Shown here in pieces: positions 9,513 to 64,000 of a stretch of 64,000 nt of DNA. A program made the position numbers and the translations under genes. The DNA comes from Paludibacteraceae bacterium. GTDB taxonomy: Bacteria > Bacteroidota > Bacteroidia > Bacteroidales > Paludibacteraceae. Under the pieces are notes generated by a model. The model searched no databases. It was not told the DNA's origin and saw nothing but the letters and a program-made list of their open reading frames with translations. How positions within the stretch are numbered: position 1 is the first letter of the stretch; each line of letters begins with the position of its first letter. The stretch lies in contig JAFTCC010000065.1 of the NCBI GenBank assembly GCA_017454915.1, positions 1 through 64,000 on the forward strand. The letters are read 5' to 3'.

Positions 9513-10274
9513 ATGATTTATTTTCTTTCTGATGCCCATCTCGGCTCACGCATCTTACCTGACAAACAGGCTGCGCATAAGCAAGAACGCAAAGTTTGCG
9601 CAATGTTAAGGACGCTCGCCAAAGACGCAACTGAAATTTTTCTGCTCGGAGACATGATAGACTTTTGGTTCGAATACGCATACACAGTTCCCAAAGGGCA
9701 AACAAGATTTCTCGGAACTCTCGCCGAGATTGCTGACTCTGGCATTGTAGTACATTATTTCACTGGTAATCACGACATGTGGACTTATGGCTATCTGCAG
9801 GAAGAATGTGGCGTCATTGTCCATAAAAAGCCCGAATCTATAGAAATTAATGGGAAAAAATGTTTTTTAGCACACGGAGATGGACTTAAAGAAACTAATA
9901 CCGGGGTCAAAATCATTCAATGGATTTTCCATAGCGAAGTTTGCAAGAAACTTTTTTGCTTAATTCCATCTCGTTTTGGCATAAATTTTGGTCTATGGTG
10001 GTCAGCCAAGAATAGAACTAAAGAACTTCAATTGCATAACAGATATCGTGGAGAAAACAGTGAACGCCTCGTGCTGTTTGCAAAAGATGCGGAAAAGGTT
10101 GAACATCACGACTATTATATCTTTGGGCACAGGCACATCCTGCTTGACCTTATGATAAAAAAGGATTCAAGGGTAATCATTTTGGGGGACTGCATTAACG
10201 AGTTTTCATATGCGGCAATAGATGATAATGGGGATATTTCCCTACTCCATTTTGACGAAGAATCTTTACTATAA
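9513..10274 (+). CDS. lpxH: UDP-2,3-diacylglucosamine diphosphatase (calcineurin-like phosphoesterase)
   Basis: LpxH cleaves UDP-2,3-diacylglucosamine to lipid X and UMP in lipid A synthesis at the inner membrane face. The 253-residue protein carries all metallophosphoesterase motifs in order: DAHLGS, GDMIDFWFEY, GNHDMW, HGDG and GHRH. It is similar in length to E. coli LpxH (240). The start MIYFLSDAHLG puts the first metal-binding Asp at residue 7, as expected. It lies 32 bp upstream of moxR and may be read together with it. Confidence 0.88.
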   Translation: MIYFLSDAHLGSRILPDKQAAHKQERKVCAMLRTLAKDATEIFLLGDMIDFWFEYAYTVPKGQTRFLGTLAEIADSGIVVHYFTGNHDMWTYGYLQEECGVIVHKKPESIEINGKKCFLAHGDGLKETNTGVKIIQWIFHSEVCKKLFCLIPSRFGINFGLWWSAKNRTKELQLHNRYRGENSERLVLFAKDAEKVEHHDYYIFGHRHILLDLMIKKDSRVIILGDCINEFSYAAIDDNGDISLLHFDEESLL

Positions 10275-56789: not shown

Positions 56790-57689
56790 TTATTCATTTT
56801 TAAGTAACTTTTTTGTCACATTAATTTTGTCCTCATCTAATTGGGCCTGTAATTGTTTAATTGTCGGGAAATTGGTTTCGCGCCTTATCAGACACACCGG
56901 CTCTACCTCAACAATTTCACCATACAGATTGCGCGGGTTTTCCCAGTCTATTATATGCACTTCTATTGATGTGCCGAAATGCGTGAGTTTGAAGGTTGGA
57001 CGGCATCCTATATTCAGCATCGCCGCCATCGGATGTGGCATATCAATCGTTTTAGCCCAGCAGGCGTAAACACCATTATGAGGCAGTAACTGAGCATTGT
57101 CAACCGACAGGTTGGCTGTTGGGAACCCTATCTTTGTCCCATTGTGGTAACCATGCTCCACACTTCCTGAAAAAACAAATGGCCGCCCCAAAAGCGCTGC
57201 GGCACTCATAAAATCCGAATTTATAATCTGCTGACGAATCAGCGTGGATGAGACGTCTGTGCCTTCATAACGCGTTGCCATAACAGCCTCAACACCAAGC
57301 TCACCGCATATTTTATCATAATAACTAAAGTTACTTATATTGTCTGAACCGAACCTGTTGTTGAACCCTATGAGCAACAATTCTGCCCCAACCTGCTCGC
57401 GAATTACATCACGCACGAATTCGCGAGCCGTCATTTTCGACATCTCGCTGTTAAAGTCCAAAACAATAACATCGTCAACATACTGCTTGAGCAGCTCTAT
57501 GCGTTCAGTGAGCGGACAAATGCAACGAGGAGCCTTATCGGGCGAAAACACTTTTGATGGATGCTGACGAAAAGTAACGGCAACAGATTTGATGCCGCGA
57601 CTTTGAGCTATGGCCCGTAACTGGCGAAGAAGGTGTTGGTGTCCTATGTGGACACCGTCATAAAAACCTATTGAAACTGCACAGCCCAT
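56790..57689 (-). CDS. ribF: Bifunctional riboflavin kinase / FAD synthetase
   Basis: RibF makes FMN and FAD from riboflavin. The 299-residue protein has an N-terminal nucleotidyltransferase core VSIGFYDGVHIGHQHLLRQL and RQHPSKVF, with LLIGFNNRFGSDN and SSTLIRQQI. The flavokinase domain shows GRPFVFSGSVEHGYHNGTKI, GFPTANL and NGVYACWA. The N-terminus is about 15 residues shorter than most homologues because the start overlaps the dnaJ stop by one base. The core motif remains complete. Confidence 0.95.
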   Translation of the reverse strand: MGCAVSIGFYDGVHIGHQHLLRQLRAIAQSRGIKSVAVTFRQHPSKVFSPDKAPRCICPLTERIELLKQYVDDVIVLDFNSEMSKMTAREFVRDVIREQVGAELLLIGFNNRFGSDNISNFSYYDKICGELGVEAVMATRYEGTDVSSTLIRQQIINSDFMSAAALLGRPFVFSGSVEHGYHNGTKIGFPTANLSVDNAQLLPHNGVYACWAKTIDMPHPMAAMLNIGCRPTFKLTHFGTSIEVHIIDWENPRNLYGEIVEVEPVCLIRRETNFPTIKQLQAQLDEDKINVTKKLLKNE

Positions 57690-58834
57690 TAACCGAAGAT
57701 GCCTCCGAAGTTAAAGAAGTTATTCTGCTTGTCTCTGTCTTTAGGATTGATGTTAGGAGACTTGGCAAGGTTTTCTATCACCTTCAGTTCGTCCCTGTTG
57801 AGGTGCTCAGGAATGTACACATTTATTTTAATGAGTTCATCGCCTCGGCCGTATGAGTTGTAGATTGGCAAGCCTTTCCCCCTCAACCTCAACACCTTTC
57901 CGGGTTGTGTTCCTGCTGGAATCGTAATTTTAGCCTTGCCGTCCACTGTCGGGATTTCCACCTGACCGCCAAGTATAGCTGTAGGCATAGGCAGCAGCAG
58001 ATTATAAACCAAGTCATTGTCCATTCTCATGAGTTGCTCGTCCTCAATCTCCTCAAAATAAACAAGCAAATCACCTGGAACTCCGCCACGTGGTGCGGCA
58101 TTGCCTTTGCCCCGCAGCTGCAACTGCATTCCGTTCATCACACCTTGGGGAACGGGAATTGTAATCACGTCCTCACCCCTGACAAGACCTTGACCATGAC
58201 AATGCGGGCAGGGGTTCTTAACTGTCTTGCCTTCGCCATGACAGTCCGGACATGGACTTTGGGTCTGCATGCGTCCAAGCATAGTCTGACGAACGCTAAC
58301 AACATAACCGCGCCCGTTACACGTACGGCAAGTCTCAACCTGACCGTCGCTTGAGCCTGTGCCATGACAATGCTCGCAGACTACATTTTTCTGGACTTTG
58401 ATTTTCTTTTCTGCGCCCTCGTTAATGTCTTTGAGCGACACTTTCACTTTAACGCGCAAGTTCGTGCCACGAGGCTGAGCAGAGCCACCTCCTCTTGACG
58501 AGCGGCCGCCGAAAAACTCCTCAAAACCGCCGAAACCGCCACCGTTAAACAGATCGCCGAACATGCTGAATATGTCGTCAACATTCATCTGCTGGGCACC
58601 TGCACCTCCTACTCCGGCAAAGCCGAATTGGTCATATTTGGCACGCTTATCGGCATCAGAAAGCACACTATATGCCTCTGCTGCTTCTTTGAACTTTTCT
58701 TCTGCCTGCTTATCACCAGGATTTTTATCAGGGTGATACTGAATCGCAAGTTTGCGGTAGGCTTTCTTTATTTCGTCGGCGCTCGCGGTTTTGTTCACAC
58801 CAAGTACCTCATAATAATCTCTCTTTTCTGCCAT
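57689..58834 (-). CDS. dnaJ: Chaperone DnaJ
   Basis: This Hsp40 co-chaperone stimulates DnaK. The 381-residue protein has an N-terminal J domain with HPD in [16 protein letters not shown] and a Gly/Phe-rich region ([19 protein letters not shown]). Four zinc-finger repeats follow ([32 protein letters not shown]), then the substrate-binding domains. It is 12 bp downstream of grpE and shares one base with ribF. dnaK is not in this window. Confidence 0.97.
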
Positions 58835-58846
58835 ATCAAATGTTTT

Positions 58847-59434
58847 TTATTGTCCCACAACAACTTTTGCATGCCGGATTACTGTGTCCCCATGCTTATA
58901 GCCGCGTGTCGTGCAGTCTATTATCTTGTTTTTCTGTTCCTCGCTTTGGGCTGGCAACACTGCTATTGCCTCATGAAGATTGGTATCAAAGTCGGCATTG
59001 GCGGTTTCTATGGCTTCCACGCCATTTTTCCGCAGATAGTCTATAAATTTCTTATAAATCAGACTGATACCCTCTTTTACGGCCTCTATGTCGGTGGCAC
59101 TTTCCACTGACACTATGGCGCGCTCCAAATCATCTATCACAGGAAGCATGTCGCGGAAAAAGCCGTCGGCTACTACATTCTTAATAGCGGCCAATTCTGC
59201 TGTTTTTTTCTTGCGGAAATTATCAAACTCTGCCATCATGCGCAGTTTCTCGTCTTTCAGCGAGGCGACTTGAGCCTCTAATTCTGCGATTCGTTCTGCC
59301 ATTTTTGTCACCTCATCCACATCATCCTCAATTGCGACGTTTTCGCCGCACGATTCTTCTGGTGAGTTGTCAAGGATTTCCTCATTAAGATTTTCGTCTT
59401 CGTTAATTTGCTGATTTATATTTTCTTCATCCAT
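58847..59434 (-). CDS. grpE: Nucleotide exchange factor GrpE
   Basis: GrpE releases ADP from DnaK. The 195-residue protein has an acidic N-terminal region (about residues 1-45) and a long coiled-coil (about 45-90: MAERIAELEAQVASLKDEKL). The conserved AEFDNFRKKKTAEL, RDMLPVIDDLERA, and the C-terminal beta domain ending GYKHGDTVIRHAKVVVGQ follow. It starts the grpE-dnaJ-ribF unit. No standard TAnnTTTG promoter is seen upstream; a TTTGGCA element shared with lon lies 74 bases before the ATG. Confidence 0.96.
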   Translation of the reverse strand: MDEENINQQINEDENLNEEILDNSPEESCGENVAIEDDVDEVTKMAERIAELEAQVASLKDEKLRMMAEFDNFRKKKTAELAAIKNVVADGFFRDMLPVIDDLERAIVSVESATDIEAVKEGISLIYKKFIDYLRKNGVEAIETANADFDTNLHEAIAVLPAQSEEQKNKIIDCTTRGYKHGDTVIRHAKVVVGQ

Positions 59435-59480
59435 AATTAGTAAAGTTTTTGTTTATTTGTTTAAGCGTTAAATATATGTT

Positions 59481-59525
59481 TTTGGCAAATAGACGCCACA
59501 TGTGTTAGTCAAAATTTTTGCCAAA
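59481..59525. repeat. Inverted repeat TTTGGCAAA...TTTGCCAAA upstream of grpE
   Basis: TTTGGCAAA at 59481-59489 and its exact reverse complement TTTGCCAAA at 59517-59525 flank a 27-base spacer in the grpE leader. No T-tract follows on either strand. The right arm is part of the element shared with lon. Confidence 0.5.
59508..59525 (-). promoter_or_regulatory. Candidate sigma-54-like or heat-shock promoter element of grpE
   Basis: On the minus strand TTTGGCAAAAATTTTGAC matches the lon upstream element at 14 of 18 positions. TTGGCA resembles a sigma-54 -24 box and TTG a -12 box, but the essential GC of the -12 box is GA here. No housekeeping promoter is visible, which is why this element was noted. 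Function is inferred. Confidence 0.4.
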
Positions 59526-59539
59526 GTTCACATGGCATA

Positions 59540-60133
59540 TTAACTGACACTTTGGCATATTTCATATTGACCGTTAAGCCATTGTGCAAAAACAGATTCG
59601 CTGCTTTGTGGAATAGACACTTCAGCCGAAATGGTCTGGTCTCCATACTCCATGCGCTCAAGTTTGCCACCCACCTGCTGCACTTTGTTTATTACTGCTT
59701 GCATTGACGTATAAGGATATGAGATGCGGAATGTCGCAAATGGTTCATACGATATTATCTCCGCTTCCTGCAGCGCAAGTTCGGTAGCTGTCCGATAGGC
59801 ATTTATCAGACCTGGCGTACCGAGCAGAACTCCTCCAAAATATCTGACCACAACAACCAGAATATCTGATAGTTGCCGCTTAATGATTTGGTTCAATATC
59901 GGTTTGCCTGCTGTGCCCGAGGGTTCACCATCATCGTTGGAGCGCTCGGTGCGACTCGGTTCGTTCAACACGTATGCAAAGCATACATGACGCGCGTCAT
60001 GAAATTTGTTGCGGTAACCGTCTATCAACTCTTTGGCGGCTTCTGCACTGCGCACATGATGAGCAAAGGCGAGAAAACGGCTTCCTCGGTCTTTGAACTG
60101 CGACGACACAGGTGAAGAAATCGAATAGTACAT
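59540..60133 (-). CDS. YigZ/IMPACT family protein
   Basis: This 197-residue protein of the IMPACT/YigZ family has the conserved SRFLAFAHHVRSAEAA, HVCFAYVLN and DDGEPSGTAGKPIL. VVVRYFGGVLLGTPGLINAY and a C-terminal ferredoxin-like domain follow. The family is proposed to act in stress-related translation control, but its bacterial role is not established. It lies 4 bp after the glycosyltransferase gene, with which it is probably transcribed. Confidence 0.9.
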   Translation of the reverse strand: MYYSISSPVSSQFKDRGSRFLAFAHHVRSAEAAKELIDGYRNKFHDARHVCFAYVLNEPSRTERSNDDGEPSGTAGKPILNQIIKRQLSDILVVVVRYFGGVLLGTPGLINAYRTATELALQEAEIISYEPFATFRISYPYTSMQAVINKVQQVGGKLERMEYGDQTISAEVSIPQSSESVFAQWLNGQYEICQSVS

Positions 60134-63630: not shown

Positions 63631-63648
63631 TTTGGCACAAAGATTGGC
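63631..63648 (+). promoter_or_regulatory. Candidate sigma-54-like promoter element of lon
   Basis: TTTGGCACAAAGATTGGC contains a perfect -24-type TTGGCAC box. A TTGG follows at the spacing expected for the -12 box, where GC would be usual. It shares 14 of 18 positions with the element upstream of grpE. No TAnnTTTG promoter was found in the lon upstream region. Confidence 0.45.
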
Positions 63649-63693: not shown

Positions 63694-63725
63694 ACTGACA
63701 AAATGTCAAAAAACTGACAAAATGT
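63694..63725 (+). promoter_or_regulatory. Repeated operator-like element in the lon leader
   Basis: The 13-mer ACTGACAAAATGT occurs twice with a 19-bp period. The first copy extends to the perfect palindrome TGACA-AAA-TGTCA (63696-63708). The second copy has only one intact half plus TGTA. It lies between the candidate promoter and the lon ATG. A protein-binding role is inferred. Confidence 0.45.
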
Positions 63726-63778
63726 ATGAAATAAAAGCGACAAGGTCAGAGTTTCATTAAACTATATTTAAGGAATAT

Positions 63779-64000
63779 ATGGAAGAAAGAATCGTACAAG
63801 TTTTTGGTTCAGAAAAATTAGGTGAAGTACCACAAATTCATGACGGAGAGATGCTGCCGCTGCTACCATTGCGCAACCGCGTACTCTTTCCGGGGATATT
63901 GCTGCCAGTAACAATTTCACGCGCAGAATTCAAAGATTTAGTAAAGCGCGCAAACAAAAACCACATGCCTATTGGCGTCTGCACACAAACTTTGCGTGAC
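63779..64000 (+). CDS. lon: Lon protease, N-terminal part (runs off the window)
   Basis: The first 74 codons are present and the frame is open at the window edge. The product begins MEERIVQVFGSEKLGE. The LON substrate-binding domain signature MLPLLPLRNRVLFPGILLPV follows, with VTISRAEFKDLVKRA. Lon is an ATP-dependent serine protease that degrades misfolded and regulatory proteins. The upstream region holds two unusual elements and no standard promoter, which would fit stress control. Confidence 0.9.
   Translation, partial: MEERIVQVFGSEKLGEVPQIHDGEMLPLLPLRNRVLFPGILLPVTISRAEFKDLVKRANKNHMPIGVCTQTLRD

Follow-up and report, generated by a model that had tools for sequence, protein, structure and literature searches.

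A probable sigma-54 promoter shared by grpE and lon, and a palindrome that accompanies it at six heat-shock operons of a Paludibacteraceae bacterium

The element shared by the upstream regions of grpE and lon in a Paludibacteraceae bacterium is very probably a sigma-54 (RpoN) promoter, and a palindrome that accompanies it most likely serves as the enhancer for a stress-responsive activator at six heat-shock operons. Both genes lie in the window, the stretch of 64,000 nucleotides that was analysed. According to the proposed mechanism, RNA polymerase with RpoN would bind the -24/-12 element and then wait for an AAA+ enhancer-binding protein (bEBP). This stress-responsive activator would be brought to grpE-dnaJ, lon, dnaK, hsp20, htpG and groESL by CTG[AC]CA-N3-TG[GT]CAG, the consensus of the palindromes at both promoters of the window, and at lon the enhancer would act from the transcribed leader. 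What is established directly are the sequences, their conservation, the pairing of the two elements, their spacing and the gene set.

On the minus strand, TTTGGCAAAAATTTTGAC occupies positions 59508-59525, 73 bases (site to start) from the ATG of grpE at 59434. On the plus strand, TTTGGCACAAAGATTGGC is found at 63631-63648, 130 bases ahead of the ATG of lon at 63779. A sequence-only reading had pointed to these two words, which are indeed identical at 14 of 18 positions, and had described the genes behind them as proteostasis genes. Pfam confirms this for GrpE (58847-59434, minus strand; PF01025), for DnaJ, whose gene follows grpE (57689-58834, minus strand; PF00226/PF01556), and for the N-domain of Lon (PF02190), the 5′ end of whose gene (63779-64000, plus strand) is in the window and which runs beyond it. 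The absence of a housekeeping promoter had also been observed correctly, as TAnnTTTG has no exact match in the 200 bases before grpE or lon; a near-match, TATATTTA, is located close to each ATG. By themselves, these grounds would not have sufficed for a shared promoter class. Of shuffled pairs, 36% match equally well: in dinucleotide shuffles of both 200-base upstream regions, the best ungapped 18-mer match had at least 14 identities in 178 of 500 cases.

Conservation of the element was assessed in other Bacteroidota. The grpE set comprised 80 loci, taken from 50 named contigs and 30 whole genomes, our own included. As upstream region we used the 200 bases before the most upstream in-frame ATG, available for 79 loci (L143, with 26 bases upstream, was excluded); setting aside our own locus left 78. 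The pattern TGGCA-N6-TTG was present upstream of grpE in 65 of these, whereas 100 shuffled sets contained it 0.4 times on average and never more than twice. For lon, loci of 30 relatives were positioned by tblastn and the pattern was sought within 300 bases; 22 loci carried it (shuffle mean 0.28, maximum 2). The exact pattern is missing from 13 of the 78 grpE and 8 of the 30 lon upstream regions. That the 14 identities merely reflect chance between two A/T-rich upstream regions, as the frequency among shuffled pairs might suggest, is refuted by this conservation and seems to us exceedingly improbable. Since the element is conserved across species and paired with a palindrome, the resemblance between grpE and lon goes beyond chance.

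Both words contain the core TTGGCA-N6-TTG with identical spacing. A sigma-54 promoter has this -24/-12 layout, with GG at -24, G followed by C or A at -12, and ten bases between. Within Bacteroidota, the layout is assigned to sigma-54 in passages of a study on Flavobacterium psychrophilum (PMC9723704). The element at grpE, with TTGGCA at -24 and TTGAC at -12, is the predicted sigma-54 promoter of the grpE-dnaJ operon, and the one at lon that of lon. Counted from -12, transcription would start at about 59497 on the minus strand (grpE) and at about 63659 on the plus strand (lon). Scored with a matrix of the 65 grpE sites found in the other species, the grpE site of the window came first and the lon site seventh among 127,966 window positions. 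At the -12 base, these 65 sites have C in 26 cases, A in 25, T in 13 and G in one. Our own genome has A at grpE, dnaK, htpG and groES, C at hsp20 and G at lon, so the lon site carries an unusual GG rather than GC or GA. The htpG and groES sites have TAG in place of the TTG that is found in the other sites of this genome. A third match in the window, TTTGGCATAAATTTTGGT at 9975-9992, has its second-best matrix score; it lies within the ORF 9513-10274 and is probably a chance occurrence.

Upstream of the grpE promoter, at 59544-59558, lies the palindrome ATGCCAAAGTGTCAG, a likely enhancer site whose centre is 28 bases upstream of TGGCA; it overlaps the 3′ end of a UPF0029 gene (stop at 59540). 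In the predicted leader of lon, the palindrome CTGACAAAATGTCAA is found at 63695-63709, and a second, weaker one with two mismatches, CTGACAAAATGTATG, at 63714-63728. With at most one mismatch, the palindrome occurs in the window at these grpE and lon positions (59544-59558 and 63695-63709) and nowhere else. As a bare count this is modest evidence, because 8 of 100 window shuffles also reach two (mean 0.5). Palindromes with at most one mismatch are present before grpE in 26 of the 78 loci (shuffle mean 0.08) and before lon in 11 of the 30 (shuffle mean 0.04).

In the whole genome (2.19 Mb), four exact palindromes were found, one each ahead of hsp20, dnaK and htpG and one within a coding sequence. 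HSP20, HSP70 and HSP90 as products of these genes are backed by Pfam. The groES gene, located by its Pfam family, is preceded by a -24/-12 site and by a palindrome that deviates at one position. The two elements thus occur together in 6/6 promoters, those of grpE-dnaJ, lon, dnaK, hsp20, htpG and groESL, and three of them (grpE, lon and groES) had been chosen independently of the palindrome; the rate expected by chance is about 0.006 per 200 bases. The single Clp_N gene found in the genome has neither palindrome nor -24/-12 site. With one mismatch allowed, the palindrome has 64 genomic places compared to 20 for a reversed control. Among the matches listed, 15 loci and 10 further stretches with one mismatch were examined, and those away from heat-shock genes lie in open frames or, in one case, have no evident gene behind them. 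The core TTGGCA-N6-TTG by itself is not selective, because it has 78 places in the genome versus 34 for its reversed control, and most of the approximately 50 that were examined in context are inside genes. A genome search for links to stress genes, which the sequence-only reading had proposed and which was run in part, thus places the -24/-12 element combined with the palindrome before dnaK, hsp20, htpG and groESL in addition to grpE-dnaJ and lon. The idea of a shared stress-promoter class for grpE and lon is supported, and the class can be named as sigma-54.

The distance between palindrome and promoter follows a regular pattern. In our own genome, the palindrome centre precedes TGGCA by 28 bases at grpE, 19 at dnaK, 19 and 72 at hsp20, 18 at htpG and 19 at groES. 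The corresponding distances at 38 grpE loci group at 18-20, 28-30, 39-42 and 49-50 bases, with 71 and 83 in addition. They have a period near 10.3 with a resultant length of 0.88, or 0.83 when the 18-21 group is left out, and none of 5000 random sets was as high, the 38 related loci being treated as independent. Steps of about ten bases fit a protein that acts through DNA looping from one face of the helix. At lon the arrangement is reversed. Both elements (palindrome with at most two mismatches) are present in 15 of the 30 relatives, and in all 15 the palindrome is downstream of the promoter, at 56-57 bases in seven and at 89-135 bases in eight; two of the 15 also have a palindrome 19 bases upstream. 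In the window, the two lon palindromes are centred 69 and 88 bases downstream of TGGCA. The palindrome would therefore be within the predicted transcribed leader, at about +30 when counted for the commonest spacing. Enhancers downstream of the promoter are known for FleQ.

A different reading takes the TTGGCA words and palindromes as operators of a repressor or an ordinary activator at a sigma-70-type promoter, the likeness to sigma-54 being accidental. It could draw on TATATTTA, which differs from the housekeeping -7 box by a single base and stands at -42 (grpE) and -16 (lon), and on the missing RpoN of our own assembly (see below), but the invariant part of the conserved sequence is exactly the -24/-12 element, with fixed spacing and mostly A or C at -12. 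RpoN is also present in most relatives, and mapped starts at the same genes of F. psychrophilum fit sigma-54 in the passages concerned (PMC9723704). Moreover, the window contains neither CIRCE at up to three mismatches nor an exact sigma-32-like site. Taken together, we regard the sigma-70-type reading as improbable. The two copies of the near-match (59469-59476 and 63763-63770) could be a second promoter for grpE and lon. Textbook heat-shock control is mostly exerted by sigma-32 or HrcA. Using the generally known consensus words, control by HrcA was rejected with no occurrence of TTAGCACTC-N9-GAGTGCTAA in the window at up to three mismatches, and control by sigma-32 with none of CTTGAA-N11-16-CCCCAT, searched as an exact match.

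Returning to the sigma-54 reading, RpoN was not found in our own assembly (88% complete), either by profile or with the protein of a congener. A weak PF04552 match in this assembly sits in a transposase-like frame, which by eye we take to be IS30. Of 41 relatives, 34 scored above the cut-off for RpoN, among them the congener, whose one examined genome (65% complete) contains RpoN as well as activators of type A and type B (see below). It was not found in six relatives: G004 (100% complete), G028 (98%), G040 (96%), G020 (94%), G010 and G012. Either the bins missed the gene in such genomes, or the sites outlived it. The relatives without RpoN retain sigma-54 activators, and G004, G028 and G040 also have sites before lon. 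Judging from the sequences, we infer the use of RpoN, the binding of an activator and induction by stress at the six operons.

Activators with a PF00158 domain are encoded in 41 of 41 genomes, and in our own by G000:C18:24595-25098 (E 4e-73). By Pfam, this protein of 383 aa belongs to what we call type A, response regulators of 382-396 aa that consist of a receiver and an AAA+ domain and have no HTH. The type A protein on C18 is the candidate activator, and this assignment is the least certain step of the explanation. G[AS]FTSA replaces the GAFTGA motif in 18 of 19 type A proteins examined, and GSFTGA occurs in the ten examined from a clade of named contigs that is rich in palindromes. The type A gene starts 2.4-6 kb past the end of grpE-dnaJ in four families of the order, with two ABC-exporter genes (named by eye) in between. 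Of 23 genomes with type A, 15 have a palindrome with at most one mismatch before grpE, versus 0 of 17 without type A. For this comparison the activator class was read or inferred from the search, and G061 (read in part) and G062 (type A with an HTH) were excluded. This contrast is a lead rather than a test, because the clades are clumped and the genomes related. Prevotella-type genomes have neither a palindrome before grpE nor type A. Type A cannot by itself account for the palindrome, because it has no HTH. A type A protein of Daejeonella retains a C-terminal HTH, so the Bacteroidales proteins seem to have lost theirs. FlgR and CtcC are AAA+ bEBPs that likewise have a receiver and no HTH; likened by their general description, they share the domain plan of type A and serve other gene sets.

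It is also possible within the sigma-54 reading, though we would not count on it, that a PspF-like activator binds the palindrome CTGCCAAAATGGCAG. Such proteins (type B) combine AAA+ with a Fis-type HTH (HTH_8), have no sensor domain and measure about 400-430 aa among the proteins listed; they were assigned by simple text patterns, so that some members fall under ‘other’. Type B has an HTH and occurs in almost every genome searched, the congener's too. On the other hand, Prevotella-type genomes have type B yet no palindrome before grpE, the palindrome tracks type A among the related genomes compared above, and type B was not found in our own 88%-complete assembly. Our tentative proposal with type A, which we hold with less than even confidence, is a dedicated sigma-54 heat-shock circuit of the Bacteroidota. 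Its CTGMCA-N3-TGKCAG enhancer would lie upstream of grpE, dnaK, groESL, hsp20 and htpG but, as a conserved arrangement, at about +30 in the leader of lon. In Bacteroidales it would be driven by the HTH-less receiver-AAA+ activator, whose gene several families carry beside grpE-dnaJ, with a separate protein reading the palindrome or the activator working from solution.

The promoter class itself is not new, since reports on F. psychrophilum and on Bacteroidota as a whole precede ours, as the passages in question make clear (PMC9723704, PMC12316311). In the SM4 regulon of F. psychrophilum, mapped starts with sigma-54 motifs are described before groESL, lon, dnaK, grpE-dnaJ, htpG and clpB, and groESL, lon, dnaK, grpE-dnaJ and htpG form one co-expression cluster (PMC9723704, ISME Commun 2021). 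According to the same passages, three PF00158 proteins come into question as activator and the choice is left open. Nearly the same gene set thus has -24/-12 promoters in both organisms, but transcription starts were mapped there, whereas the set in our genome also includes hsp20, and the Clp_N gene found in it lacks a site. The passages do not name an enhancer site, and ‘palindrom’ is absent from the main text. A matrix scan of Bacteroidota for sigma-54 sites found GroEL/ES, IbpA, GrpE, DnaJ, DnaK, HtpG and COG0466/0542/1066 enriched (PMC12316311, PLoS One 2025), a regulon of chaperone and protease COGs that resembles ours and includes Lon; Sabree 2009 is cited there for grpE. Its passages contain no enhancer motif, and ‘UAS’ has no occurrence in the main text. 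In Chlamydia, a passage describes tandem sigma-66/sigma-54 promoters for the hrcA-grpE-dnaK operon (PMC8762339). A sigma-54 promoter serves grpE in both cases, but the second promoter of Chlamydia is repressed by HrcA, whereas the window has no CIRCE. Myxococcus HsfA is an NtrC-type regulator of the heat-shock lon gene lonD; this system, likened by its general description, belongs to a different phylum. In the open-licence literature, we found no paper on a Bacteroidota heat-shock enhancer site or its activator other than PMC12316311 and PMC9723704, and their passages on sigma-54 control of chaperones name neither the stress-sensing activator nor the place where it binds. New as leads are the probable enhancer with its reversed position at lon, and the candidate activator whose gene lies beside grpE-dnaJ in several families. 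Enhancer motif, downstream placement in lon and candidate activator make the question of the stress activator directly testable.

Several minor observations concern the two elements and their surroundings. In a Flavobacteriales contig (L124:6001-11273), one of the 50 named loci, type A was again found near grpE when flanks of 6 kb were considered. Prevotella-type genomes mostly have the -24/-12 site; in ten grpE promoters of this type the element is present and the palindrome absent, and the gene upstream often stops a few bases ahead of -24. The exact 15-mer of the lon site has another copy in the genome (C40:61878), which was rejected as it is within an open frame of 477 aa. The pattern TTGGCA-N5-TTG was discarded as well, its matches being mostly a dispersed intergenic repeat. 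Among the genome matches listed, this repeat has the core TTGGCATCTTTTTG 27 times and TTGGCATATTTTTG seven times; the 13 copies examined share flanking sequence, and many of them are at contig ends.
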